Shown here in pieces: positions 51,889 to 64,000 of a stretch of DNA of 64,000 nt (the first letter of the stretch is position 1; each line of letters opens with the position of its first letter). The stretch is from Bacteroidales bacterium (GTDB taxonomy: Bacteria > Bacteroidota > Bacteroidia > Bacteroidales > UBA932), in contig JAFTMS010000006.1 of NCBI GenBank assembly GCA_017452265.1, forward strand, positions 1 to 64,000. Direction: 5' to 3'. Under the pieces are notes generated by a model. The model saw nothing but the letters and a program-made list of their open reading frames with translations. It had not been told where the DNA came from and did no database searches. Position numbers and translations under genes: made by a program.

Positions 51889-51948
51889 CAATCCCTTACG
51901 AAAGGGAAATGCGGATAACGGATGCAAATCCCATTTTGCAAATATATT

Positions 51949-52033
51949 GGAGAGATGGCAGAGTGGTCGAATGCGGCGGTCTTGAAAACCGTTGATCTTA
52001 ACGGGTCCGGGGGTTCGAATCCCTCTCTCTCCG
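51949..52033 (+). tRNA. tRNA-Ser (anticodon TGA)
   Basis: An 85-base class II tRNA. Acceptor arms GGAGAGA and TCTCTCC pair over seven bases, the D-loop is GGCAGAGTGGTCGAATGC, the anticodon loop CTTGAAA gives TGA, a long variable arm follows, and the T-loop is GGTTCGAATCC. The discriminator is G; CCA is not encoded. A terminator follows. It is the boundary between the GC-rich core and the AT-rich island. Confidence 0.97.
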
Positions 52034-52037
52034 CAGA

Positions 52038-52074
52038 AAAGTGGCTTACAGGTATCTGTGAGCCACTTTTTAAT
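52038..52074 (+). terminator. tRNA-Ser terminator
   Basis: AAAGTGGCTTACAG (52038-52051) pairs with CTGTGAGCCACTTT (52056-52069), 14 pairs with one T-G wobble, followed by TTAATTTT. Confidence 0.85.
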
Positions 52075-52330
52075 TTTAGTATCCCAAAAAATATCCCAAA
52101 ATCACTTCGGAAACAGTAAGCTATTTGCAAGAAACTGCAAGTGGCTTTAATTGTTTTTGAAAGGGAAGAGGATTGGCGTTCTGTTGGAGAGAAGCGGAAA
52201 CAGAATGACAATCTTCTGATTCCGCTGTCCTAATAGGGCAAGTCTTCAGGCGGCTTGTCCGGCTGAAGTCTTGAACGAAATATTAAGTCTTTCATTATTA
52301 TGCCTTGTATTGGATGTTATGTGATTGTTT
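52075..52330. other. Island edge with two mismatch-bearing hairpins, no gene
   Basis: I see no coding sequence. Two hairpins lie in a row: AGCGGAA-a-CAGAA / TTCTG-a-TTCCGCT (52193-52226), and CAAG-t-CTTCAG / CTGAAG-t-CTTG (52239-52273). Each has one symmetric mismatch in the stem. Their place directly after a tRNA gene at the start of AT-rich DNA would suit an integration scar, but I find no integrase and no repeat of the tRNA end. Confidence 0.4.
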
Positions 52331-52702
52331 TTAGTCCTCAGCTATTTCTATTATATTCCCTGTCTCATCTACTTGCCATAGACTATACTGTCCATCTCCG
52401 TCGAAATCTACAACGGAAACAGCTGTAGCCTTGAATGTGGAGTCTGTTGCCTCATCTAACGAAATGAGGTAATTGGCCTTACCGCCATCAGTTACTAGAG
52501 TATCCTGAGTGAAAGCAAGAGCATAAGTGTTTTTTGTGAAGGATCCGAACAGTCGTTTGTATGAATGCTCTAATTTATAGACATCTAATAATACTGATTT
52601 GACTTCATTATCCAATACTGTCTTTTTGTTGAGGAGAAGGCAGATTGAAACAGAAGCAAATAGGGCAAATAGAGATATTGATATGATTGTAACAACTTTC
52701 AT
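52331..52702 (-). CDS. Membrane-anchored small protein with a pilin-like C-terminus
   Basis: A 123-residue protein with one N-terminal hydrophobic helix (IISISLFALFASVSICLLL), then a soluble domain. The end, AVSVVDFDGDGQYSLWQVDETGNIIEI, resembles the C-terminal strand pattern of type IV pilin-like proteins (AxxDxDGDGxxSxWxIDExG). There is no prepilin peptidase site that I can point to, nor a lipobox. Last gene of the island's visible part, downstream of lgt. It may be an accessory or immunity protein; function not known. Confidence 0.6.
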   Translation of the reverse strand: MKVVTIISISLFALFASVSICLLLNKKTVLDNEVKSVLLDVYKLEHSYKRLFGSFTKNTYALAFTQDTLVTDGGKANYLISLDEATDSTFKATAVSVVDFDGDGQYSLWQVDETGNIIEIAED

Positions 52703-52726
52703 GCATCCCTGAAATAATTATCTTAT

Positions 52727-52779
52727 CTATTGTGCAAAGGGTTATATCTTATCTGAACGTATCAGAATGCGCACAATAG
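52727..52779 (-). repeat. Inverted repeat between lgt and the pilin-like gene
   Basis: CTATTGTGC (52727-52735) and GCACAATAG (52771-52779) are perfect inverted repeats with a 35-base loop. They fill the gap between the two genes; a weak terminator or an operator are possible. Confidence 0.4.
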
Positions 52780-53625
52780 CTATTCTGTTGATTTTATTAC
52801 ATCTTTAAGAGGACATTTCCATTTATAACTGAGATAAATCAGTACTATCCCTAAACCAATGAATGGCAGACTTAGGTATTGTCCCATGTTAAAATGCATA
52901 TTAGATTCAAAAGAGACCTGAGGTAACTTAATAAACTCAATCAAAAATCTGGCTCCAAATAGTAGGCATAGAAATACACCAAATAATCCACCTTTATAAA
53001 GTATTGTATTCTTTCGACGATATATAATCAGTAATAATAATCCTAGCGCAAGGTAACATACGGATTCATATACTTGTGTAGGATGACGAGGGAGAATGTC
53101 TCCGTTACGAACGAATATAAAGCCCCACGGCAAATCTGTTACAGAACCATAAATTTCAGAGTTCATCAAGTTCCCCAAGCGAATAAAGCATCCTGCGAAA
53201 CAAGCAGGTATACAAATTCTATCAAGTAACCAAAGTAAGTCAAACCCTCCAAGTTTGCCGTATCTATGATTATATAACCATATTGCTATTAATACTCCTA
53301 TAGCACCCCCGTGACTAGCAAGTCCCCCTTTCCATACACATAGTATTTCTATCAAGCTTCTCCAATTTGCAAAGTAGTATTCTGGAGAATAAAATAAACA
53401 GTGACCCAATCTAGCTCCAATAAGAGTTCCTAAAAATATATATGAAAGCAAAGGTTCCAATAAATTCACATCTTTTCTTTCTACAGAAAAAAAGGATTTC
53501 ATCATCAGGTATCCAAGAGGAAATATTCCTATAGTAAATAAAATAGAATACCATCTAATGGAAAACCTACCAATTTGAAACAGTATAGGAGAAATATCCC
53601 ATTCAATGTATAATAGTTGCCACAT
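52780..53625 (-). CDS. lgt: Prolipoprotein diacylglyceryl transferase (island-borne Lgt)
   Basis: Transfers diacylglycerol from phosphatidylglycerol to the lipobox cysteine. From the ATG at 53625 the protein is 281 residues with about seven membrane helices. Catalytic residues are present: SHGGAIGVL (His), RLGNLMNSEIYG (Arg, Asn, Glu) and the late RFLIEF (Arg, Glu). The longer frame would start inside the hairpin at 53643-53670 and is rejected. It follows a double-glycine peptide gene in the AT-rich island, which suggests a second, specialised copy, although this window cannot show whether the genome has another. Confidence 0.92.
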   Translation of the reverse strand: MWQLLYIEWDISPILFQIGRFSIRWYSILFTIGIFPLGYLMMKSFFSVERKDVNLLEPLLSYIFLGTLIGARLGHCLFYSPEYYFANWRSLIEILCVWKGGLASHGGAIGVLIAIWLYNHRYGKLGGFDLLWLLDRICIPACFAGCFIRLGNLMNSEIYGSVTDLPWGFIFVRNGDILPRHPTQVYESVCYLALGLLLLIIYRRKNTILYKGGLFGVFLCLLFGARFLIEFIKLPQVSFESNMHFNMGQYLSLPFIGLGIVLIYLSYKWKCPLKDVIKSTE

Positions 53626-53642
53626 AATAGTTACAAGATTCA

Positions 53643-53670
53643 GGTGGGGTGCAAACATTTGCACCCCACC
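53643..53670 (-). promoter_or_regulatory. Hairpin between GG-peptide gene and lgt
   Basis: GGTGGGGTGCAA (53643-53654) pairs perfectly with TTGCACCCCACC (53659-53670) around four bases. No T run follows on the minus strand, so it may protect or attenuate the upstream peptide mRNA and not end it fully. Confidence 0.65.
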
Positions 53671-53681
53671 AATGTAATAAA

Positions 53682-53843
53682 TTACTCGTTAGATTCTGGT
53701 GGGACGGTTTCTTCCTGCTTGGAATCACTGCTTACCAAGAGACCTACAATGACTAAAGCAACGACTACACCCCAACCCATGCCACCATTAGTTTCAACCT
53801 GTTCATCCACAGATAGAGCGACAAGATTTGCATTTGTTTTCAT
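53682..53843 (-). CDS. Double-glycine leader peptide 1 (hydrophobic core)
   Basis: A 53-residue product too short for routine calling. Leader MKTNANLVALSVDEQVETNGG (21 residues) ends in GG as in C39-processed peptides; it shares MKTN, LS, E and NGG with the precursor at 59985. The 32-residue core is a hydrophobic helix (GMGWGVVVALVIVGLL is its start region) with GxG spacing, followed by a charged tail SSDSKQEETVPPESNE. No cysteine. It has its own promoter with the shared dyad at 53916-53931. Likely exported by the C39 transporter of this island; a bacteriocin or signal role is inference. Confidence 0.7.
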   Translation of the reverse strand: MKTNANLVALSVDEQVETNGGMGWGVVVALVIVGLLVSSDSKQEETVPPESNE

Positions 53844-53897
53844 TGTGCAAAATTTTAAGGTTAAACATTATTTAATTAAACACGTGTTTCGATAATG

Positions 53898-53931
53898 CAA
53901 ATCTATTCATAGCCAGTCTAAATCCATAGAC
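53898..53931 (-). promoter_or_regulatory. Promoter and dyad operator of GG-peptide 1
   Basis: The dyad GTCTAAATCCATAGAC (53916-53931; half-sites GTCTA and TAGAC on either strand) lies 14 bases from CAAA (53898-53901), TTTG on the minus strand, where the -7 element reads TAGATTTG. The same dyad with the same 14-base spacing occurs at 60251-60284 before another GG-peptide gene. The dyad overlaps the -33 region. Confidence 0.65.
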
Positions 53932-54002
53932 AAATAAAATATCCGTCAGAAAATTCACATCTTCCAACGGAAACAAATCAATATTTATGTTTAACTAAAA
54001 GG

Positions 54003-55487
54003 TCATTTCCCATAGAAATTAGTAATCCATTTCCAAGTTCCATCTTTATCATTAAGATTCAAAAGTATGTCCGGGATAAGTACCTCTTCCTCTTTTAGTT
54101 TTTCATTAGGTCTGATGAAATATCTGCAACTTATGAGGCATTGAGTGTTGGTGTTGGGCAAAATACATTGCAATATATCTCCATATGTAGAAGGTTTATT
54201 TCCTGAAATTTCTCCAATAATCGTTCCTATGCCATTATCTCTTGCCGTCGTTAGAAGAAGCCCAGAGCTACTGTATGACCCTCGTCCCTCAATGAAAACA
54301 ACATTACCTTTGAAAATGTTATTCAAATTATTATTGAACCGATGTTTGGTCGTATCTATTAATTGTGATGTGTTTTCTTTAGAATTTGGGAAGTATAGTT
54401 TTTCCCAGTCAAAATCCCACAGATTATACATTTTTCCCAGATGGTAGGAGGTGCCATTTTTAAGTTTAACATTCTTAAAGTCTGGCTGTGTCTTAAGTAA
54501 GAGATCAGACATTCGCACAGCAACGCTATATCCTTTTAAGCTATCTATTGGTGATAGCCATGACAATAATACATCCCCAAGCGTACAGTTTCCGCCACCA
54601 TTATATTGCAAATCAACAATTAACGTTTTAACAGCTTTCTCACTAATTTCTTTCATTAATTGTTCAATATAGTTATCAAATCTAGGCAACTGCTTCATAT
54701 GCGGATGGGTAATGCGATCTGCAAACCTATTGAATTGTAAATAACAGATGCTTTCATCTTTGAATATTTTATGACAAAAGAATTCATCTTGTTGATCCAT
54801 AAAGCCAGAATCGTTTTGTATTCTATGTGGATGATTTATCTTATCCCTTGACGCAGGCTCAAGGCTTATCGTTGTTCCATCTGAAAAAGTCAAATCGAGT
54901 GTCTCACAGCCTGGCGTGCAAATATCCCAAAATTTCTTTATCTGAAAATATTGCTGCAAAATGTTATATAAAAAGATGTCATTATCATGACTTATAATCT
55001 GACTTGCTTTTTGAAGAACTGCATTAACTTTAAGTCCATTAATTTTGTTCACTCTTTTGCCAATAATATGGCTGATATTTTCATCTGCAGAGAGAATGAC
55101 AGCTGTTTTATCTGTATCGATCTCCAAAATTACAGGATATAATAATATTGGGGTAATACCTAAATAAATAGAGGTATGTGCATCATTCAATGATGATATT
55201 TCCTTCTGCAATCGTATTCTAAAATCATCAATACTTTCGATGTTGTTAAAATCGTTATACAAAGTCCTTACTCTTTTTTCTAACTGTCTGCAATGTTGTT
55301 CTGAATCATAATACGGATGTGTTTTTGCCAACATGTTAGCATATAACAAAAGATCTTTCTGATAAGTATTTCCATTTGCATATTTTCGGCTTGAGACAAC
55401 TATAGAATCATATGCAACCGGCAAGTTCTGAGAGAAAACGCTGACAGAACAAATAATAAGTAATACCAATGATAATACTCGCTTCAT
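54003..55487 (-). CDS. S41 family (C-terminal processing) peptidase
   Basis: A 494-residue protein with a signal peptide (VLSLVLLIICSVSVFSQ), so it acts outside the cytoplasm. The S41 core is seen in TLIVDLQYNGGGNCTLGDVLL and in the catalytic-serine region GRGSYSSSGLLLTTARDNGIGTIIGE. An N-terminal helical region, LLLYANMLAKTHPYYDS, is typical of Bacteroidetes S41 proteins. It follows the radical SAM gene by eight bases and so belongs to the precursor-maturase operon. It may process exported peptides or confer self-protection; neither is proved. Confidence 0.88.
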   Translation of the reverse strand: MKRVLSLVLLIICSVSVFSQNLPVAYDSIVVSSRKYANGNTYQKDLLLYANMLAKTHPYYDSEQHCRQLEKRVRTLYNDFNNIESIDDFRIRLQKEISSLNDAHTSIYLGITPILLYPVILEIDTDKTAVILSADENISHIIGKRVNKINGLKVNAVLQKASQIISHDNDIFLYNILQQYFQIKKFWDICTPGCETLDLTFSDGTTISLEPASRDKINHPHRIQNDSGFMDQQDEFFCHKIFKDESICYLQFNRFADRITHPHMKQLPRFDNYIEQLMKEISEKAVKTLIVDLQYNGGGNCTLGDVLLSWLSPIDSLKGYSVAVRMSDLLLKTQPDFKNVKLKNGTSYHLGKMYNLWDFDWEKLYFPNSKENTSQLIDTTKHRFNNNLNNIFKGNVVFIEGRGSYSSSGLLLTTARDNGIGTIIGEISGNKPSTYGDILQCILPNTNTQCLISCRYFIRPNEKLKEEEVLIPDILLNLNDKDGTWKWITNFYGK

Positions 55488-55495
55488 AAAATGTA

Positions 55496-56776
55496 TTATT
55501 TAGAGGTGGTCATATAAATATATCTGAGTTCTACGTATTTTTCTAAGTTTCCTATTGCTGTCATACAGTAGTCCATATTAAGGTTCTTTAGATCAGAGCA
55601 GCCTCCGTTGCAAGCAGGGAATAATACACACCGTCTGCATTTGTCATCAAAAAGTGAGTCACTGCCAATCATATAGTCTGCATATAGGTCTGCATTAGTT
55701 ATATTTAGATCGGAATCTATATAACCAACTGATTTGTTTGGCATGCCGAGATGATGCCAGCATTTGTATAATTCTCCTTCTGGCCCTACTATCAAAGAAT
55801 TGTTGCTATGACAACTACAACCTTTATTTCTTCTAACAATCAATAGATCTGGACTATATATGCCGTGTGTGTGATATAGATCACATATAAATTCTGATTT
55901 TTCTTTAAGCCCTTCAAAGCATGTATTACTTTTACAATTTCCATCATAGTTATGGACAAATGCTGGATATAAGAATAAGCGCTCACCAAATCTATTTAAG
56001 AGTTCTTCTCTCAATTCTATAAATTCGTTGGCATTCTGTTTGGTGAGATTCATTCTAATTGAGATTTTGACATCATATGATTTTTGGAGTATCATATCAA
56101 TATTGTCAATGATTTTGTCATATGAGTCTCCTCCTGATTTTAAAATACGAGTTTTATTATGAGTCCTCTTCGTGCCATCTAAAGTTATTTGAATCTTTCG
56201 AATACTATACTCGTCTAACTTATCGATTAGTCGATCAAGGTTATATCCATTAGTTACAATGGAAGCCTCATAAGACTTAACCACTTCTTTTAATCGTGGA
56301 GTTAGAAGTGAAATCGAATTTACCGCTTCTGTTGGCTCTCCACCATACCAAGCAACTTGTAACTTTCTGCCGTTATGGTGTTTTTTAACATATGAAACAA
56401 TTCGATTCATAACATCTAAACTCATCCCTTTATTGGTCAATCGACTTTTCTCATAACAATATGGACAGGCAAAATTACATGATTGAGTCGGTGCAATTGT
56501 TAAGCCTAATGTAGGAGAGTTATAACGTAAATTTAAGTTATGTAGAACAATCTTATTGAACTCCGATTCATTTGATGATACTAAAAAACGTCCATCAAAC
56601 AAGAACTTGTATTTATCATCATCTCTAGCAATCTTATCTGGATCCTCCCTTATATGAATCAACTCATCGTACATTTCCTTATCCACCTTCACAAGCATAT
56701 TGGAAAGTGTGCTATATAATAGATAAGCGTTAGCAATTTTAGAGTAAAATATTATAGAATAATTGCTCCAAACCAT
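55496..56776 (-). CDS. Radical SAM/SPASM peptide maturase
   Basis: A 426-residue protein. The N-terminal 90 residues may form a peptide-binding region. CNFACPYC (Cys100, 104, 107) is the radical SAM cluster site, with WYGGEPTEA and QITLDGTKRTHN as later SAM motifs. The C-terminal SPASM part has cysteines in KGCSCHSNNS, GELYKCWHH, DDKCRRCVLFPACNGGCSD and MDYC, enough for auxiliary [4Fe-4S] clusters. Such enzymes install thioether or carbon-carbon links in ribosomal peptides. It is 48 bases downstream of a four-cysteine GG precursor, its probable substrate. It resembles maturases that I recall as GG-Bacteroidales system proteins. Confidence 0.88.
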   Translation of the reverse strand: MVWSNYSIIFYSKIANAYLLYSTLSNMLVKVDKEMYDELIHIREDPDKIARDDDKYKFLFDGRFLVSSNESEFNKIVLHNLNLRYNSPTLGLTIAPTQSCNFACPYCYEKSRLTNKGMSLDVMNRIVSYVKKHHNGRKLQVAWYGGEPTEAVNSISLLTPRLKEVVKSYEASIVTNGYNLDRLIDKLDEYSIRKIQITLDGTKRTHNKTRILKSGGDSYDKIIDNIDMILQKSYDVKISIRMNLTKQNANEFIELREELLNRFGERLFLYPAFVHNYDGNCKSNTCFEGLKEKSEFICDLYHTHGIYSPDLLIVRRNKGCSCHSNNSLIVGPEGELYKCWHHLGMPNKSVGYIDSDLNITNADLYADYMIGSDSLFDDKCRRCVLFPACNGGCSDLKNLNMDYCMTAIGNLEKYVELRYIYMTTSK

Positions 56777-56792
56777 ATCATATTGTTTTAAC

Positions 56793-56815
56793 GAGAGTGG
56801 CCATCAGCCACTCTC
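56793..56815 (-). promoter_or_regulatory. Hairpin between precursor and radical SAM gene
   Basis: GAGAGTGGC (56793-56801) pairs perfectly with GCCACTCTC (56807-56815). Without a T run it is likely a partial terminator or a stabilising 3' end, making more precursor than maturase mRNA. Confidence 0.65.
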
Positions 56816-56824
56816 TGACCATAG

Positions 56825-57031
56825 TTAATTGTTAATAATGTTAACAGAACATTCTGGGCGTTCCCAAACACAGATTGTAACATTGTTCATTGGGCATACT
56901 GGGGTAAGTATAACGGTACAGTAGTTGCTTTCTGTCTGTTCTGTCAAGCCTCCGTTGATGCCGACAAGGTCAAGCTGCTCAAGCGTTTTTGGAGACAGCC
57001 CAGCATCGATAATGTTGATTTTCTTTTCCAT
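56825..57031 (-). CDS. Four-cysteine double-glycine RiPP precursor
   Basis: A 68-residue peptide. The leader (1-28, ends LVGINGG; also LSPKTLEQLDL) is a classic GG leader. The 40-residue core has Cys at core positions 10, 18, 26 and 33, regularly 7-8 apart, with small, acceptor-type residues between (TESNYCTVILTPVCPMNN, then VTICVWERPECSVN). Regular cysteines beside a radical SAM/SPASM enzyme suggest thioether-linked (sactipeptide- or ranthipeptide-type) products, although disulfides are possible. It lies between tolC-like and radical SAM genes. Confidence 0.8.
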   Translation of the reverse strand: MEKKINIIDAGLSPKTLEQLDLVGINGGLTEQTESNYCTVILTPVCPMNNVTICVWERPECSVNIINN

Positions 57032-57107
57032 TTGATTGTTTTTACGTTATATCTGCTTACTCTATTAAGGATTTTCTGCTACCTCCTTTATAGTCGCGCA
57101 ACTATTT

Positions 57108-58454
57108 TCAATTTATGTTATAATAAGTTTGCAATAATTTTCTGCTAGATATTAATGCATACTTCGTATTATTTACCTCATATTGAGCCTTAGCATATTC
57201 AACTATTGCAATGTTCCAAGTGATGAAATCGCACTTTCCATACTCATATTGCTCCTTAATTTGTCGCAAAACCTCAGATGTATACTTTAGCTGTTCCGTA
57301 GCACTTACAAATCTTTGATATGCTGTTTCATAGTCGCCTCTAATCTGCTCATATTCTTTGGCAACTTTATTCCTTGTAAGGTACATAGTGTGGTATGCGT
57401 CTTTTACTGCATACTCAGCTCGCTTTACATTGTTTTTTACCCTCATCCCATTAAATATTGGAATCTGAAGAGTTAATGTAATATATGCATTTGTATTATC
57501 TGCCCATTGCTCAAATGGAGGGTATTTGATATTCTGATAAGTGTCATTTTCAGAAATCAATACTTTTTGTCTGGCACTAGAGTAATTTGAACCATAACTG
57601 CCCGAAAGTAAGAGAGTAGGGTAATAAGATGATTTTGCAACCTTTACAGCATATTTTGCTGATTCTACACGAAGCTCTTCAGTACGGTATTCCGGCAAGT
57701 TGTGAAATGAGATATCATATCTATTCGCATCAGTATTATATACCTGTTGCAAGTCATTTTCATCATCATTCTGTAATCGTATTAATGAGTAATCCGAAAT
57801 ATTCATTAGTTGTCCTAATTCGAGTAATGCCATCTTTTTCGCGTTATTCGCTAAAATAATATCATTCTGGGCAGAACATAACTGTGATCTTATTTGCAAT
57901 AAATCAGCCTCCGTTTTTATTCCAGCATCAACTTGAGCTTCAATAATCAATAGTTGCTCAGTTATCAAATTCGCAATCAAATGTGCTGATTCAATGTTTT
58001 TATCTGCACATAATACATTATAAAATGCTAAAACAACATTTTTACAGACTTCTTTACGCATTGAGAGGCTATTCATTACGAATGCATCATATTCTTTCTG
58101 TGCCTGCTTTACTCGATAATACCTTTCTAAGCCAGAAAACAAGATTGCCGTACCAGTAATTGATATACTACTACTACCGACTGTACTATGTTCAAGGAAA
58201 CTATATGTTGTCTGATCTAGTACTCTTCCTGATGATAAACTATAATTAGCACCTGCGCTAATCGATGGAATGAATTCTGATTTGGCTTCAGCGATACTTA
58301 CTTTAGCCGATTTCTCTTCATTATTTAGTTTCTCAATCGAAACATTACAACTGTAAGCTTGATTGATGCATTCCTGAAGGCTCCATATACGGTTGCTATT
58401 CAGTTCTTCGCTAAAACCAATCAGACATATAATAAAGTTGATAGCTAGTAGCAT
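57108..58454 (-). CDS. TolC family outer-membrane channel
   Basis: A 448-residue outer-membrane efflux protein with an N-terminal signal region (LLAINFIICLIGFSEE), two repeats of long alpha-helical and beta-barrel segments, WSLQECINQAYSCN at the usual first helix, and GRVLDQTTYSF. It is the outer-membrane part of a type I exporter together with HlyD and the C39 ABC protein 4 kb away. The gene is 12 bases after the TraB/GumN gene and 76 before the four-cysteine precursor. Confidence 0.93.
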   Translation of the reverse strand: MLLAINFIICLIGFSEELNSNRIWSLQECINQAYSCNVSIEKLNNEEKSAKVSIAEAKSEFIPSISAGANYSLSSGRVLDQTTYSFLEHSTVGSSSISITGTAILFSGLERYYRVKQAQKEYDAFVMNSLSMRKEVCKNVVLAFYNVLCADKNIESAHLIANLITEQLLIIEAQVDAGIKTEADLLQIRSQLCSAQNDIILANNAKKMALLELGQLMNISDYSLIRLQNDDENDLQQVYNTDANRYDISFHNLPEYRTEELRVESAKYAVKVAKSSYYPTLLLSGSYGSNYSSARQKVLISENDTYQNIKYPPFEQWADNTNAYITLTLQIPIFNGMRVKNNVKRAEYAVKDAYHTMYLTRNKVAKEYEQIRGDYETAYQRFVSATEQLKYTSEVLRQIKEQYEYGKCDFITWNIAIVEYAKAQYEVNNTKYALISSRKLLQTYYNIN

Positions 58455-58466
58455 ATAAATTATTTT

Positions 58467-59330
58467 TTATTTAAGTACGGGTTCCACTACATACCCTGAA
58501 AGTCTTAACATATTTATCAATCCATACCGACCAGGCAAATGCCCAGCTCCGACAACAAACATTGTTGATTGGGTATTAATGGCCGATTTAATTGTTGGCA
58601 TCCAATTGAAATTACGCTGTTTTACGACTCGTTCATACTCCTTTTTAGTAAGATCTCTCTTAAATAATTTCCAGATTTTCCGAAGATCTTGGGCTTTGTA
58701 TGCATCAGATAATGATTGTGTCTTTTTTACTAGTTGCTTGTCATTCAATAATTTTATTAAATCATTTGCCTGCTCCTTCAGGGACGCTCCATACAAAGTC
58801 TCTAATTGGAATTCTAAAGTCTCTAAGCCAAAATTCCCTTTACTGTGCTTATGAGCAGATGTTAAAATAAACAAATCAATAGGAACCTGCGGAGTACTTA
58901 TGCTTTGTGATAAAATGGTATTTTGAATATTAGTTGCAACTGTCATTGGCTTTAGAGCATCTAATCGTTCAATAGTTGTCCCTAAAATATTTGATAGTTT
59001 TTTGTTGAGTGTCTTAATTTGACGCGATGAATATAAATCACTTTGCTTTTGGCCTGCTGGCATAGCCATGTATGATCTCATCAAACTAATGTCATCAGCA
59101 CTTGGAGATATTAAATCTTTGAATACTATTTCCCCGTACACTTGTTTCACATTTTCAAAAGCGAATTTATATCCAGGAATACTGTCAGTTAGCATACCAT
59201 CATAGTAGTGATGTGTTCCCAATATATATGACGGCTCTTTAAGATCATTGCCCGTTATTTGCCATAAGATTTGTGCATTACTATGGAATGATATGGCAAA
59301 TGTTAATATTAGTATACATAGGTGTTTCAT
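58467..59330 (-). CDS. TraB/GumN (TIKI-like) family protein
   Basis: A 287-residue protein with a signal peptide (HLCILILTFAISFHSNAQ). It has both GxxH motifs of the family: GTHH (38-41) and GAGH (261-264), plus Glu67 in QVYGEIVF, the set proposed to bind metal in TIKI proteases. TraB/PrgY of enterococci limit peptide pheromones. In this context it may degrade or trim the exported peptides. I start at MKHL (59330), because the longer frame puts the signal peptide inside. Thirteen bases follow the 3-TM gene. Confidence 0.85.
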   Translation of the reverse strand: MKHLCILILTFAISFHSNAQILWQITGNDLKEPSYILGTHHYYDGMLTDSIPGYKFAFENVKQVYGEIVFKDLISPSADDISLMRSYMAMPAGQKQSDLYSSRQIKTLNKKLSNILGTTIERLDALKPMTVATNIQNTILSQSISTPQVPIDLFILTSAHKHSKGNFGLETLEFQLETLYGASLKEQANDLIKLLNDKQLVKKTQSLSDAYKAQDLRKIWKLFKRDLTKKEYERVVKQRNFNWMPTIKSAINTQSTMFVVGAGHLPGRYGLINMLRLSGYVVEPVLK

Positions 59331-59343
59331 TGTTCGAATAAGA

Positions 59344-59661
59344 TTAATTAAACAATTTACTGATAACTTGTTGTAAAGCATATGCTACAGAGCCTCCTAT
59401 TATTACTCCAAGCGATTTAATCAGTACTTCATTACATTGAGGCTCTCTCGTTAAAAGTATGGGTATTATCATTCCTATAATCATGCAGAGGGTAACTTTC
59501 TTATCAATTGAGAAGCATAGACTAGCAAGTACTAGACTCATTGAGAATAAACCATATGTTAACCCTTCTACATATACAGAATCTGATTTTCTAGTTATAA
59601 TGGCGAGACAAAGAGTTGCGACTACTATCAATATCTCAATGTTTTTTTTATTGAATAGCAT
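59344..59661 (-). CDS. Small 3-helix membrane protein, candidate immunity protein
   Basis: A 105-residue protein with three or four hydrophobic stretches (IEILIVVATLCLAII, GLFSMSLVLASLCFSI, VTLCMIIGMIIPILL and SLGVIIGGSVAYALQ). I recognise no family. Its place right after two GG-peptide genes and before the TraB-like gene is where immunity genes of bacteriocins lie, but this is inference only. Confidence 0.6.
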   Translation of the reverse strand: MLFNKKNIEILIVVATLCLAIITRKSDSVYVEGLTYGLFSMSLVLASLCFSIDKKVTLCMIIGMIIPILLTREPQCNEVLIKSLGVIIGGSVAYALQQVISKLFN

Positions 59662-59686
59662 ATAAACATATTTTAGTTGTTTTAAA

Positions 59687-59750
59687 ATTGCCCACTTGGT
59701 GCAATCTGTATCGCGTAGACATGTGATTCTTAATTACACCAGTGGGCAAT
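59687..59750 (-). terminator. Hairpin after the tandem GG-peptide genes
   Basis: ATTGCCCACTTGGTG (59687-59701) pairs with CACCAGTGGGCAAT (59737-59750) with a single bulged base; on the minus strand it is followed by TTTTAAAAC. It should end or reduce transcription from the peptide promoter before the membrane-protein gene. Confidence 0.65.
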
Positions 59751-59806
59751 CATCTGTTTAACAATAAATCATTAACTGGTAATGAAATCTATTGGTGAGC
59801 AAATGT

Positions 59807-59980
59807 TTAGGCTGGAGGTGCATCTTCTGGGTGCTCCATGTACTCTTTGCCAAGCTCTAGAGCATATTGAGTCAGATGATAATCCAGCCATCCTATTGTA
59901 TATGACAAGATCGAACCCCCGTTACTTACTGTAGCCTCCTGTTCCTTAAGTATAGGAAGATTTGTTTTGAGTGTAGTCAT
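59807..59980 (-). CDS. Double-glycine leader peptide 3
   Basis: A 57-residue peptide from the ATG at 59980. Leader of 22 residues ends ATVSNGG, and contains LKTN and LKEQE like the other leaders. The core (35 residues) is amphipathic and not hydrophobic: SILSYTIGWLDYHLTQYALE, then an acidic, proline-rich end MEHPEDAPPA. No cysteine. It starts four bases after the preceding peptide gene, so the pair is cotranscribed and could be a two-peptide product. The longer open frame upstream lies inside the other peptide gene and is rejected. Confidence 0.68.
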   Translation of the reverse strand: MTTLKTNLPILKEQEATVSNGGSILSYTIGWLDYHLTQYALELGKEYMEHPEDAPPA

Positions 59981-59984
59981 GGCA

Positions 59985-60188
59985 TTAATTTTTAGGGTTC
60001 CATTCTCCGTTGGCTGCATCATTCCAGCCGTCCTGATAATCTTGGTTGCTATTACGATCCAAGAGTTCAGATAGAAGAGCGCCTGCAATGAGCCCCACAA
60101 TAAAGCCTGTTACTGTCGCAGAGCCACCGTTAACCTGCATCTCACTTGCTGACAAGTCAACAGTTCCATTTGTTTTCATTTTGTTCAT
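59985..60188 (-). CDS. Double-glycine leader peptide 2 (GxxxG core)
   Basis: A 67-residue peptide. The leader (MNKMKTNGTV..SASEMQVNGG) ends in GG at 21-22. The core has a hydrophobic helix TGFIVGLIAGALLSELL with two GxxxG motifs (GFIVG, GLIAG), as in two-peptide bacteriocins where such motifs pack helices, followed by a polar tail with DRNSNQDYQDGWNDAANGEW. A start at MKTN (three codons in) would match the leader of peptide 1 better. The dyad operator lies 80 bases upstream. Confidence 0.7.
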   Translation of the reverse strand: MNKMKTNGTVDLSASEMQVNGGSATVTGFIVGLIAGALLSELLDRNSNQDYQDGWNDAANGEWNPKN

Positions 60189-60250
60189 AAATTAAATCTG
60201 TTTTTAATTGGTTAATAGATATAATCCAGTGCACTGATTGTTTCTGAATA

Positions 60251-60284
60251 CAAAGGTCATATCTATCTGTCTAAATTTATGGAC
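60251..60284 (-). promoter_or_regulatory. Promoter and dyad operator of the tandem GG-peptide genes
   Basis: Dyad GTCTAAATTTATGGAC (60269-60284; one mismatch between half-sites) lies 14 bases from CAAA (60251-60254), TTTG on the minus strand. Sequence and spacing match the element at 53898-53931. The -7 element is GACCTTTG, one base off consensus. A winged-helix gene ends five bases further upstream. Confidence 0.62.
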
Positions 60285-60288
60285 AGCA

Positions 60289-60531
60289 TCAACGTTCTTG
60301 AAAAATTCTCAATGTGATATTAACGTTTTCTGGATATTTGTAATAATATGTTTCTCGAAATCTGGAATACTCAATTTCTATCCCGTAAGACTCCAACTCA
60401 GATAGTATATTGTAGAGCGTGGCTCTACTTACCCCAAGTTTACGAGCAAAGTCTTCCGCTTTACCAGTATTCTCTTTGATGACGTACTGATGAAGTAGCG
60501 ATACGGTATCTATAAAACTAAATACTTTCAT
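60289..60531 (-). CDS. Small winged-helix regulator
   Basis: From the ATG at 60531 the protein is 80 residues. Its middle, AEDFARKLGVSRATLYNILSELESYGIEIEYSR, is a clear helix-turn-helix with a following wing (ETYYYKYPENVNITLRIF), similar to HTH_11/DeoR-type domains but with no ligand domain. It lies between the ABC transporter gene and the dyad of the peptide promoter, so it may bind that dyad. The longer frame overlaps the ABC gene and is not needed. Confidence 0.78.
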   Translation of the reverse strand: MKVFSFIDTVSLLHQYVIKENTGKAEDFARKLGVSRATLYNILSELESYGIEIEYSRFRETYYYKYPENVNITLRIFQER

Positions 60532-60541
60532 AATACAATTG

Positions 60542-62716
60542 TTAGAATTGTGTCTGACTCTTCCAGTAATTATAATAATCCCCTTTAAGATCAATTAATT
60601 CATTGTGAGTACCTTGTTCAGTCATTTTGCCATTTTTTAAAACTATTATGTTATCAGAGTTCATAACAGTTCCTAAACGATGAGCGATTATAATTACTGT
60701 TTTGCCTTGTTTGCGTAGGTTCTCTACAATCATTTTTATGCTTTGTTCCGATTCAGAGTCGAGAGCAGATGTGGCTTCATCTAAAATTAGAATCTGCGGT
60801 TCCTTGTATAAGGCACGTGCTATTGCAATTCTTTGACGTTGTCCTCCTGATAGTTGTACTCCATTTTCGCCTACATTGGTATTGAACCCCATTGGTAAAC
60901 TTTCAATAAATGTTAAGAAATCCATATCTCTGCAGATATCAATTACCTTTTTCATATCTGGCTTGAATGAGTCTAATGCAATATTCTCCAATATAGTCCC
61001 TTCAAATAAATCTATTTTCTGAGGTACTATGCTTATAATGGAACGAAGATCAGAGTTCTTTATATGATTCACATCTACATTGCCAATGCTTATGCTGCCT
61101 GATTCTATAGGATATAGATTAAGAATCAATGATGCAATTGTTGTTTTACCTGACCCACTTTCACCAACTATAGCGCAGACTTTACCTTTGGGGAATCGTA
61201 GTGTCAAGTCGTTAAATACTTCAGTTCTGGTTCCATATCTGAATTTTACATTATTAAACAAAATGTCCCCGCATTGATCTACTGACATTTCGATTTTGTT
61301 CTCATATTCTTCCACATCAAGATCCATAATTTCGAACAAACGCGAAGCTGCAATCTTAGCATCTTGATACGATCTATTGATGTTTACAAGAGATGCTACA
61401 GGACCGATAAAATATCCCATTAATGCATAAAATGACATCAATTCTCCTGAGGTGATTACATTTTCAAGTACGAAACCTGTTCCAGTCCATAACAATATTA
61501 TAGTGAAGACTCTTGAAATACTCTCTGTTCCAATACTTGTCCAAATGCTATTAGTAGATGATTTAAAAGCTGAACGAATAAATTTCACAAACTGTGTTTC
61601 TGTCTTTATGTGAGCATATTCTTCCAAATTAAAGCGTTTGATAGTACCAGCTGTATTGATGGATTCAATGAGTTGAGCTTGAAGATCCGCTGCATTTTCC
61701 ATTACTTTTCTTTGAACGATCTTATTGGCCCTATTATATAATGCATAAACAATTGCGAATAAGGGGAGTACAACAATCATTATGATTGCTAGTTTCCAAT
61801 AATAAGTAAACATTAATCCAAATGCGAGAATGACGGTAAATATATTTACTGTCAAACTGACGAGAGTTTCATTGATGAATGTACGTATTTTTACAGCATC
61901 ATTAATCCTGGATATTATTTCTCCAGACCTCATATTGTCAAAGAATGACTGCGGCAATTTGAGCAAATGCTTGTAATATCCAAGTATCAGCCTCGTGTCT
62001 ATTTTCAGACCGGTCTTTACCATAAAGATAGTTTTAATATACTTTATGAATAACGATATTATCAATATTGCAATCATTACTATACTCAAAAGATTTAGCA
62101 GATTCTTATTCCCGTCCGGAATGACAAAATCCACGATTTTTTGAACATAGATAGATGTTCCCAATCCCAAGAGTGTGTATATTAATGCTCCTATTATAGC
62201 CTGTGTAATTATTCCCTTATGAGGTTTTAGCAGGAACATAAACCTACTTAACATAGAAACAGTGCTATCGCCTTTTCTAAAATCTTCAGTAGGCAACATA
62301 AGAACCAGTATCCCTGTCCACTCTTTTGCAAAATCATCCAATTTCTTTTTATGGAGTTCCCCGGTTGCCGGATCCATGATAGTGATGAATGATTTACTTA
62401 CCCTATATATGACGACATAGTGTAAAAGTTTATTGTTTACGATAACATGAGCAATCGCTGGAGTTGGAATTTGCTGCAAAGGAATGAGGTTAACAGTGCC
62501 ATCATCGTGTACAGATTTAACCGCTTTTGTATCAAATCCCAACTTATGTGCTGCTTCTGTTAGGCCTAATATGTTTGTTCCTCTCCTATCGGTATGAGCT
62601 ATCTGGCGAATTTTTGATAACGGGAGGTCTAATCCATAATATGAAGAAATTGATGACAGGCATGCTGCTCCACAGTCGGTAATATCGTGCTGCTTAACCT
62701 TAATTCTCTTATTCAT
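60542..62716 (-). CDS. ABC transporter with N-terminal C39 peptidase (bacteriocin exporter)
   Basis: A 724-residue protein from the ATG at 62716. The C39 domain (1-140) has all catalytic residues: Gln9, Cys15 in QHDITDCGAACL, His99 and Asp115. It cuts after GG leaders during export. The six-helix membrane domain covers about 160-430. The nucleotide-binding domain has GESGSGKTT, LSGGQRQRIAIARAL and ILILDEATSALD. It overlaps the hlyD-like gene by eight bases and forms a type I system with it and the TolC-like protein. The four GG peptides of the island are its likely cargo. Confidence 0.95.
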   Translation of the reverse strand: MNKRIKVKQHDITDCGAACLSSISSYYGLDLPLSKIRQIAHTDRRGTNILGLTEAAHKLGFDTKAVKSVHDDGTVNLIPLQQIPTPAIAHVIVNNKLLHYVVIYRVSKSFITIMDPATGELHKKKLDDFAKEWTGILVLMLPTEDFRKGDSTVSMLSRFMFLLKPHKGIITQAIIGALIYTLLGLGTSIYVQKIVDFVIPDGNKNLLNLLSIVMIAILIISLFIKYIKTIFMVKTGLKIDTRLILGYYKHLLKLPQSFFDNMRSGEIISRINDAVKIRTFINETLVSLTVNIFTVILAFGLMFTYYWKLAIIMIVVLPLFAIVYALYNRANKIVQRKVMENAADLQAQLIESINTAGTIKRFNLEEYAHIKTETQFVKFIRSAFKSSTNSIWTSIGTESISRVFTIILLWTGTGFVLENVITSGELMSFYALMGYFIGPVASLVNINRSYQDAKIAASRLFEIMDLDVEEYENKIEMSVDQCGDILFNNVKFRYGTRTEVFNDLTLRFPKGKVCAIVGESGSGKTTIASLILNLYPIESGSISIGNVDVNHIKNSDLRSIISIVPQKIDLFEGTILENIALDSFKPDMKKVIDICRDMDFLTFIESLPMGFNTNVGENGVQLSGGQRQRIAIARALYKEPQILILDEATSALDSESEQSIKMIVENLRKQGKTVIIIAHRLGTVMNSDNIIVLKNGKMTEQGTHNELIDLKGDYYNYWKSQTQF

Positions 62717-63881
62717 AATCAAATACCTTTGGATTTAACCAATTGTCGATTTTATCATATAGTAATTGAAACACCGTGCGTTGGGTAATTATAAAATTTG
62801 CGTTTACAGTCATTCCCTTTCTAATATGTCCTATATATCCATTTTTTAATGAAAGAGTCTCGGAATCTAATGCACAAATCACTTTGTAATATGATTGCGT
62901 CTGATCCGCAGATAAGGTAACATCATCAAAGATTTCCAGAACAGTGCAATTTAATGTACCCCAATCGTTATAGTTGAACGCAGAAACTTGGACTCTGCCC
63001 TTCATTCTCTCATGAATAAAGCCAATGTCTTTGGGCGTTATATAGCATTCTGCAATCAATTTCCCATCAGGAGAAAATTCCAGGATTTGTTGTCCTGATT
63101 GGACATACATTCCATCAAAAAAACTAAAATAAGGATGGACTGTACCATCAGATGGCGCAATAATAACCGTTTCTTTGTTGCGCTTCTCAATCTGGGTCAG
63201 TTGCCGTTCAATTTCACGAAGATCATTCTTGTAACTCTCATAATCAGATTGCCATTTATATCTCTGATAGGTATCTAAAGTCTCCAATGCATTTACAGAT
63301 TGCAGGTACTCCAATTTCACCGTTTCATAGTCAGCATCAGAAATTGCCTTTTTTATTAATAGCGTACTATCTCTGAGATAATTACTATATGATTGCTTAT
63401 GTTGTGATAGGGCCTCATTTCTTTGCGATATATAATGATTATATTCTGTCTGGTACAAGAGCGTTTGAAGACATGGGGGAATATCTCGTAATGTATTTAA
63501 ACTTTCAAGATCTTCTAAAAAATCATACAATTCCTCTTGTCTTCGTATGAGTGTAGGACGATCGGCAGTCACTATGTCTGATACAATCGTAAAGAGAGTA
63601 TCGCCAGTTTCAACGTACTCGTTAGACTGAATCCTATATGGCTTTATATAACCATTTGTTGTACTGGTTATGATAGAGCGATCGTATCTTGGCTTAATGA
63701 CTCCCGATGCCCTTACGCTTATATCAATATGGATGAAATTGGCTGCAATCAGACATAATGAAACAACTATTAACGTAATTATATAGATGATGTTTTTGTC
63801 TTGCCCGTCTTCTTTGAACAAAAGATCAGCTGATTGCTCAACAACTGATACTGGAAAGACTCTCGGATAATTTCGTTCCAT
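62709..63881 (-). CDS. HlyD family periplasmic adaptor
   Basis: A 390-residue membrane-fusion protein: one N-terminal membrane helix (IIYIITLIVVSLCLIAANFIHI, about 30-51), a lipoyl half (GVIKPRYDRSIITSTTNGYIKPYRI), a long coiled coil (about 115-235), second lipoyl half (VIIAPSDGTVHPYFSFFDGMYVQSGQ) and a beta-barrel end. It links the C39 ABC transporter, encoded with an eight-base overlap, to the TolC-like channel. Upstream of it 119 bases reach the window edge, without a clear promoter. Confidence 0.94.
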   Translation of the reverse strand: MERNYPRVFPVSVVEQSADLLFKEDGQDKNIIYIITLIVVSLCLIAANFIHIDISVRASGVIKPRYDRSIITSTTNGYIKPYRIQSNEYVETGDTLFTIVSDIVTADRPTLIRRQEELYDFLEDLESLNTLRDIPPCLQTLLYQTEYNHYISQRNEALSQHKQSYSNYLRDSTLLIKKAISDADYETVKLEYLQSVNALETLDTYQRYKWQSDYESYKNDLREIERQLTQIEKRNKETVIIAPSDGTVHPYFSFFDGMYVQSGQQILEFSPDGKLIAECYITPKDIGFIHERMKGRVQVSAFNYNDWGTLNCTVLEIFDDVTLSADQTQSYYKVICALDSETLSLKNGYIGHIRKGMTVNANFIITQRTVFQLLYDKIDNWLNPKVFDYE

Positions 63882-64000
63882 ATTGAATATATTTCTTAGT
63901 CTTCTTTTCTACTATATCTGAATATATGCTTCTGCATAAGTGTGTTCTGTGTATATTACCAAATAGAAAGCTCCCATATTTATAGGTATATTCAGGCGAC

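Follow-up and report, generated by a model that had tools for sequence, protein, structure and literature searches.

A candidate multi-peptide export island on a mobilizable element in a tRNA-Ser gene of a Bacteroidales genome, and a regulator family with exporter-type Gly-Gly tails

Clusters that join a radical S-adenosylmethionine (radical SAM) enzyme to a peptidase-containing ABC transporter (PCAT), a membrane fusion protein (MFP) and an outer-membrane protein (OMP) have been described in Bacteroidales (PMC10352776, available sections). For recognition by PCATs the consensus Leu(-12)-x3-Glu(-8)-Leu(-7) has been reported, with the motif within the last 13 residues (PMC6363468, available sections). 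Bacteroidetocins, CefA/CefB pairs and class IIb bacteriocins are other described systems of a similar kind. The window analysed here, i.e., the whole stretch of 64,000 nucleotides, comprises bases 1-64000 of the 79,114-base contig C44 from a Bacteroidales draft genome of 2.56 Mb (84% complete); locus L003 continues this contig beyond the window (L003:9646-9673 = contig 73646-73673). The window holds most of the cargo half of a 21,632-bp integrative mobilizable element inserted in a tRNA-Ser gene, and this cargo is an AT-rich island of genes for double-glycine (GG) peptides and their export. The island is probably a composite for peptide antagonism that combines PCAT export, a class IIb-like pair (gg1 and gg2, with the membrane protein TM3), a precursor crosslinked by a radical SAM enzyme (ggC), proteases, control by a winged-helix regulator, and hairpins. 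Islands of this general type are known, and the way in which this one combines modules is new. For a mobilizable element with a full exported-peptide set, it supplies the precise ends and an unoccupied site.

The borders of the element are marked by an exact 28-bp repeat, present in exactly two copies on the contig and consisting of the last 21 bases of tRNA-Ser(TGA) (51949-52034) and the next 7.

52014..52041, + strand: attL, the 28-bp repeat at the 3' end of tRNA-Ser(TGA) (exact repeat, tRNA call, empty site in genome G561)
contig 73646-73673 (L003:9646-9673), 9.6 kb past the window: attR, the second copy (exact repeat)

The site is empty in G561, a genome of the same genus, where tRNA-Ser is joined directly to the DNA found here beyond attR, and both genomes align across the join over 1445 bp at 93% without gaps. 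The att repeats and this ungapped empty site are the grounds for an integrative mobilizable element of the length given above. A tyrosine integrase adjoins attR (L003:8106-9476). Between integrase and cargo lie a relaxase (PF03432, 1.1e-28), a NikA-like mobilization protein and a DnaD/HTH protein (both below cut-off), a DUF3853 protein and an HTH_3 regulator. No type IV secretion system family was found in the element proteins scanned, which were the non-overlapping frames >150 aa and part of the smaller ones (outside the cargo 8 proteins, one of 111 aa). With tRNA att repeats, an empty site, and an integrase and relaxase without a conjugation machine, the element has the make-up of an integrative mobilizable element, and its excision and transfer are predicted from these genes. 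The GC content of 0.51-0.56 across most of the window changes to 0.34-0.36 in the island, with the step around the tRNA gene, as the original prediction of an AT-rich island had it. Of the limits then proposed, 52036..63881, the second falls short, since the island continues to contig 73673. Apart from the tRNA, a scan of 51900-64000 against Rfam gave no match.

Relatives of the integrase at E<=1e-100 occur in 8 of the 149 genomes of the family, the window's genome included. No gene of this cargo (E<=1e-5) was detected in stretches of 2-20 kb beside eight integrase copies in seven other genomes; therefore, within the reach of these stretches, the backbone is not tied to this cargo. No near-match of the cargo was found on plasmids. 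After attR (L003:9674-15114, contig 73674-79114) a second tyrosine integrase, an AAA_14/DUF4143 ATPase and a protein judged Fic-like by eye follow; this region probably represents a further element inserted in tandem at this tRNA-Ser, and G561 has that second integrase at the site without the 21.6-kb element. In addition, 43 bp just inside attL (52235-52277) match G000:C41:8748-8790 in the same genome at 91%, possibly as a shared element end.

The cargo genes within the window are listed below. Every frame named in the original prediction is present on the minus strand where it had been placed, and the families given for the large genes are matched by Pfam-type domains far above chance with catalytic motifs that look intact. 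For the pilin-like protein the frame stands, and the ComP match behind the family label is below threshold.

52331..52702, minus strand: pilin-like protein, 123 aa, N-terminal transmembrane (TM) segment (weak ComP match, E 0.022)
52780..53616, minus strand: second Lgt, prolipoprotein diacylglyceryl transferase (LGT, 2.1e-61)
53643..53670, minus strand: hairpin with 12-bp stem between gg4 and Lgt (65-nt gap, -26.4 kcal/mol, z -4.5)
53682..53843, minus strand: gg4, GG-leader peptide with hydrophobic 32-aa core (frame, leader motif)
54003..55487, minus strand: S41 peptidase with N-terminal hydrophobic, signal-like segment (Peptidase_S41, 2.7e-12)
55496..56776, minus strand: radical SAM/SPASM peptide maturase (radical SAM, 3.5e-18)
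56793..56815, minus strand: hairpin with 10-bp stem between ggC and the radical SAM gene (-17.6 kcal/mol, z -4.3)
56825..57031, minus strand: ggC, GG precursor with four-cysteine core, presumed radical SAM substrate (CefA-like leader)
57108..58454, minus strand: TolC-family outer-membrane channel (OEP, 1.9e-51)
58467..59381, minus strand: TraB/PrgY/GumN-family protein with N-terminal hydrophobic segment and two GxxH (5.3e-47)
59344..59661, minus strand: TM3, 105 aa, three hydrophobic segments, candidate immunity protein (same position in L177)
59687..59750, minus strand: long hairpin between gg2 and TM3 (143-nt gap, z -6.0)
59807..59980, minus strand: gg2, GG-leader peptide with 35-aa core (leader motif)
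59985..60188, minus strand: gg1, GG-leader peptide, 45-aa core with TM-like helix and GxxxG (leader motif; weak relatives in L167 and L177)
60251..60286, minus strand: putative operator-promoter directly 3' of the winged-helix gene (inverted repeat and box)
60289..60531, minus strand: 80-aa winged-helix regulator, GG tail absent (HTH_11, 1e-6)
60542..62722, minus strand: C39 peptidase ABC exporter, PCAT (C39, 4.6e-33; ABC membrane and ATPase domains)
62709..63881, minus strand: HlyD-type MFP (HlyD_3, 1.3e-12)
63912..64000 (contig 63912-64337), minus strand: 141-aa frame with signal-like start, its 3' end in the window, presumed first gene of the exporter operon

The exporter matches PDB 4ry2 over residues 4-722 and passes the peptide cleavage/export ABC model (550.6 bits, cut-off 523.85); with the MFP and TolC beside it, a PCAT-type type I secretion system (T1SS) is complete. 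Motifs that look intact are the C39 Cys/His/Asp, Walker A, LSGGQ, CxxxCxxC with further cysteines, both TraB GxxH and the S41-type serine, all of which we take to have their usual functional meaning. The models of NCBIfam nearest to the maturase are TIGR04463, TIGR04334 and CefB, each below cut-off. For gg2 the start is the ATG at 59980, and the longer frame is not the gene. The short frames are more than chance open frames: gg1, gg2, ggC and gg4 all have a GG leader, and strong hairpins follow the last three. The multi-precursor export island that had been proposed is supported, its parts being a single T1SS of PCAT type, one maturase, a pair of peptidases and an Lgt. Upstream of the exporter operon lies a gene for a TPR-plus-TM protein (L003:595-2289), relatives of which occur near other radical SAM/PCAT loci (L005, L057, L069, L071, L074, L081-L083 and L085).

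The following working of the island is what its sequence predicts. The single T1SS of HlyD, C39-ABC and TolC would cleave the leaders after GG, as the leaders suggest, and export several peptides. Together gg1 and gg2 would form a two-peptide bacteriocin of class IIb-like type, to which TM3 would confer immunity, and the radical SAM/SPASM enzyme would introduce crosslinks into ggC ahead of its export. Beyond the inner membrane, peptides may be trimmed or destroyed by the S41 peptidase and the TraB-family protease. The winged-helix regulator is expected to bind the inverted repeat behind its own gene and thereby set the transcription of the peptide genes, and the hairpins after gg2, ggC and gg4 may let precursor transcripts outnumber enzyme transcripts. 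These hairpins stand directly behind their genes, and for each none of 200 shuffles was as stable, while four other folded stretches have z of -3.1 (the gap between regulator and gg1, with the inverted repeat), -1.8, -1.7 and +2.0. Behind the stop codon of the regulator gene lie the inverted repeat ctgtc-N10-gacag (60267-60286; alone not significant, p 0.10 with 40 shuffles) and then GACCTTTG (60251-60258), a near match before gg1 to TAnnTTTG, which we take to be the -7 type box of Bacteroidetes. Full matches include TAACTTTG at 64330 before the first gene of the exporter operon, with others at 66324 (TPR gene) and 53905 (gg4), and further ones inside genes.

The neighbours of related genes show how the cargo was put together. 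Some PCAT at E<=1e-100 is found in 100 of the 149 family genomes, and 18 stretches from family genomes, taken around the better matches, were compared (identity 54-67% for 16 of these matches and 40-45% for two), gene presence being scored by phmmer at E<=1e-5. HlyD was present in 14 of them, the winged-helix regulator in 11 and TolC in 3; the radical SAM enzyme, S41 peptidase, TraB protein, TM3 and Lgt were in none, and these zeros do not amount to whole-genome absences because the stretches are short (4.5-20 kb) and many end with the contig. The L177 stretch does hold a TM3-like gene that the cut-off missed (E 0.053). The original prediction had expected the gene set to travel together; a single co-travelling system was rejected on these counts, HlyD and the regulator recurring often beside the exporter and the radical SAM, S41, TraB and Lgt genes in none of the 18 stretches at this cut-off. 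Judged from such neighbourhoods, the cargo is built of exchangeable modules around one exporter. The first module (HlyD, C39-ABC exporter, winged-helix regulator) is common to several family genomes, the second (gg1, gg2, TM3) resembles a class IIb bacteriocin with its immunity gene, the third consists of ggC with the radical SAM/SPASM enzyme and S41 peptidase, a pair of enzymes also found beside a CefA precursor in Tannerella, and the fourth of gg4 and the second Lgt. GG peptides also lie behind the PCAT at L181:8249-8488 and L185:10431-10673, with a hydrophobic core stretch ending in a cysteine (lipobox-like); gg4 resembles the L181 peptide (E 0.0064) without its cysteine.

For the second module, L177 (same family) and L167 (another family) have two GG-type small peptides and a small membrane protein followed by HlyD and PCAT. 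The L167 peptide passes the class IIb cut-off (TIGR03949, 22.7 vs 21.5 bits) and is followed by an Rce1/CPBP-type protein (5.7e-9), presumably of a class with bacteriocin immunity function; the similar-looking L177 protein had no Pfam match. Because the L167 peptide passes and a protein of this type follows, gg1-gg2-TM3, i.e., two adjacent GG peptides with an immunity-like TM protein, is read as a class IIb-like pair with its immunity protein, which is likely but unproven. For the third module, the closest relatives of the radical SAM enzyme (among the best 79 of 202 loci) are in a termite Bacteroidales metagenome-assembled genome (MAG) (48%), Tannerella forsythia ATCC 43037 (46%) and a Dysgonamonadaceae MAG (43%), and all three have an S41 peptidase directly after the enzyme. 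Cysteine-rich GG precursors precede the enzyme pair in T. forsythia and the Dysgonamonadaceae MAG; the former is CefA (89.5 bits, cut-off 30), while both precursors of the latter are below that cut-off. The ggC leader resembles those of T. forsythia CefA and the L036 precursors in sharing [IV]-I-[DE]-x-G ahead of the GG (a comparison by eye of four precursors and a fragment), and the maturase scores 173.5 bits against the CefB model and does not pass its cut-off of 600. In the termite MAG (L034:430-624) a CefA-like leader runs into the start of the radical SAM frame with its core missing, through loss or through repeats collapsed in assembly.

Several observations weigh against an island for antagonism built in this way. 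The link of gg1-gg2-TM3 to L177 and L167 is one of gene order and type, with E values of 0.041 and 0.33 for gg1 and 0.053 for TM3. Furthermore, gg2 has no pairwise match in these two loci, the first L177 peptide has VG instead of GG, and neither gg1 nor gg2 of the window passes any family cut-off. The cysteines of ggC are spaced 8, 8 and 7, against every fifth residue in CefA, and a pattern scan that gave nine terminator-like sites picked up none of the three hairpins. Finally, signalling instead of killing fits as well. The peptides could be pheromones by which carriers sense each other, with the TraB-type protein blunting self-signalling and the winged-helix and TPR proteins reading the signal. 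PrgY of enterococcal plasmids blunts self-signalling, and the island has a TraB/PrgY-family protein with both GxxH motifs, a linked regulator with an operator-like repeat, the TPR-plus-TM gene and its relatives near similar loci, and a mobile context. Killing is favoured, however, by the small TM gene that follows gg1-gg2 and by the class IIb match of the L167 relative, and no receptor gene was identified. A signalling island is regarded as rather unlikely.

Another explanation would make the second Lgt the mark of a target, with an exported product inhibiting the Lgt of competitors and the island copy serving as a resistant spare. The synthetic compound G2824 has been called the first-described Lgt inhibitor (PMC8316002, available sections), and a second Lgt in a peptide island would be an opening toward a natural inhibitor of lipoprotein maturation. 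The duplicate stands beside gg4, is 55% identical to the other copy of its own genome (G000:C29:177735-178526) and has R-x-G-N-x-x-N-S-E-I-Y-G in common with it. A cluster with an extra target-pathway gene is known from myxovirescin, which carries an additional lspA. Two or more Lgt copies are common, however, being present in about 48 of the 393 genomes of the order (counted from a listing), and in 3 genomes whose two copies were both inspected none of the 6 stretches had a C39 domain, the lone match to the winged-helix model there being a frame of about 620 codons; with the absence of Lgt from the exporter stretches this makes a target role improbable. The island Lgt may be a passenger. Lgt as a general marker of peptide islands was also considered and found no support in those 6 stretches. 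That the whole cargo consists of decaying passengers, AT-rich genes gathered by the mobile element without joint function, is very unlikely. In its favour, the nearest relatives differ from module to module and the pilin-like and Lgt genes are partnerless in the 18 exporter stretches; against it, the frames are open and on a single strand, the motifs are intact, and promoter-like boxes and post-precursor hairpins are in order.

Relatives of the winged-helix regulator have led to a side finding which, if true, outweighs the island itself. A family profile from 16 members gave 86 matches at E<=1e-5 in 52 of the 393 genomes of the order. Of these matches 85 lie in genomes other than the window's; 68 of them, in sixty regions, were fetched and 17 of the weaker ones left out, and these regions, the 18 family stretches and three named loci yielded 80 winged helix-turn-helix (wHTH) proteins; 2 of the 80 regulators were dropped as cut by the locus end, and 2 of 35 Gly-Gly-positive proteins for cores of 5 and 1 residues. 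A Gly-Gly in the C-terminal tail was found in 33 of 78 proteins, with 11 to 39 residues after it. Among 50 different tails of >=12 residues 33 have it, against a shuffled mean of 5.9 and maximum of 14 (2000 rounds, kinship ignored). The residues before it are those of a PCAT leader: in 32 different tails L/I/V/M stands at -12 in 27, E/D at -8 in 26 and I/L/V/F at -4 in 26, and the canonical motif at the tail end reads Leu-12, Glu-8, Ile-4, Gly-Gly. Named carriers are plasmid pAT7 of Aureibacter tunicatorum, where an 'HTH domain-containing protein' with GG tail (WP_309943463.1) is followed by TolC, HlyD and PCAT, and Persicobacter sp. JZB09, with a wHTH-GG gene 4 bp behind the PCAT and before a GG peptide. 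The window regulator has the domain and ends before the tail, and is thus outside the GG-tail family proper. In the regulator tree, which is poorly resolved, it falls in a tail-less group of four inside the GG-bearing members, and because of this nesting a loss of the tail in the window's lineage is suggested. A PDB profile comparison of the wHTH gave nothing convincing (best E 0.023), and in the members scanned no NCBIfam or Pfam model above cut-off spans domain and tail. Regulators with a GG motif at the C-terminus were not the subject of any paper found in the open-access literature searched, the available sections of PMC8939145 included; most subscription journals lie outside it.

The codons after the Gly-Gly are little conserved as protein. 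Synonymous/nonsynonymous counts in six pairs are 96/133 for the domain, 19/33 for the leader and 9/43 for the core. In nine pairs they are 125/195, 25/45 and 14/67 (leader-core p 0.015, domain-core p 0.0002), the three extra pairs being close copies or repeat loci; some genes are shared between pairs, and codons are not independent. An inverted repeat followed by TAnnTTTG occurs in 13 of 33 GG genes and 6 of 45 without GG (180 nt each, 78 genes; p 0.015). A repeat that beats about 95% of shuffles is present in 23 of the 33 and 13 of the 45, respectively (p 0.0005, single-base shuffles); the box alone shows no difference (16 of 33 and 14 of 45, p 0.16). Examples of repeats after the Gly-Gly are CCGTCC..GGACGG and CACTGAC..GTCAGTG. 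The tail codons thus seem to share their DNA with the operator and promoter that serve the following genes, whereas the motif ahead of the Gly-Gly is preserved. Tails as plain exported peptides were considered and are set back by the low conservation of the core and by the repeat and box. Since the motif is kept while the following codons carry repeat and promoter, the exporter protease would dock on or cut the regulator, and cleavage may couple export to transcription instead of making a peptide.

A tentative proposal, held at well under even chances, is that these Bacteroidota regulators are substrates of the exporter they often lie beside: C39 would dock on or cut them, a busy exporter would be read out in the transcription of the peptide genes, the tail codons would also serve as promoter of the peptide genes and as operator for the regulator itself, and the window's lineage would have lost the tail and kept regulator, operator and exporter. 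Secretion of FlgM reports on the flagellar exporter in a parallel manner. A GG tail is present in 12 of 17 regulators with a C39 gene within <=300 bp and in 21 of 61 others (Fisher p 0.012), an association that does not hold up once kinship is controlled for, with only 2 independent pairs left; 12 of the 33 GG regulators have no C39 gene anywhere in their stretch. If the proposal is true, a transcription factor that carries the recognition motif of an exporter is a new form of coupling between secretion and expression. At L254:8263-8412 lies a third copy, without the domain, of a tail sequence that two wHTH-GG genes next to each other have; it stands just before a GG peptide gene, in keeping with a promoter role. 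At L259:1-11525 wHTH-GG genes stand among LanC-like proteins and cysteine-bearing GG precursors, and the genome to which L259 and L258 belong carries no fewer than three wHTH-GG genes, whose cores differ. Tail-less relatives lie beside TraM/TraN/M23 on plasmids of Bacteroides fragilis and B. uniformis (L319:5001-5252, L332:4001-4243), and one relative on a plasmid of Persicobacter psychrovividus is tail-less as well.

Comparison with described systems places these findings as follows. Nif11 and nitrile-hydratase leaders (PMC6363468, available sections) also have a protein-like domain before a double-glycine exporter motif; there the domain is the leader of a peptide, whereas here it is an HTH_11 winged helix and the codons after the Gly-Gly often hold a repeat and promoter-like box. 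Like the bacteroidetocins (PMC6671954, available sections) the island has GG bacteriocin-like peptides and a C39-ABC exporter in Bacteroidales. The four-gene bacteroidetocin region includes a thiol oxidoreductase; that family was absent from the cargo proteins scanned, the peptides differ, and the island is not counted as a bacteroidetocin region. With CefA/CefB (NF038108, NF038107) it has in common a radical SAM/SPASM relative (48-43%), the S41 neighbour and a related precursor leader, and it differs in the 8, 8, 7 spacing of the ggC cysteines and in an enzyme far below the CefB cut-off. The class IIb likeness (TIGR03949, lactobin A/cerein 7B) consists of adjacent GG peptides, the first with a helix and GxxxG, and a small TM protein; the exporter here is a Gram-negative T1SS, whereas known systems use a Gram-positive one. 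The nearest systems are BGC2 and BGC4 of the available sections of PMC10352776, which likewise have a radical SAM enzyme, GG precursors, a complete PCAT-MFP-OMP exporter and, in BGC2, a TPR gene. Such clusters are already known, and what is new is the combination of modules, for which the original prediction knew no described system: the exporter of the island would serve a radical SAM precursor together with three GG peptides without an evident modifying enzyme of their own, and S41, TraB, Lgt and winged-helix genes are added, all on a mobilizable element with defined borders.

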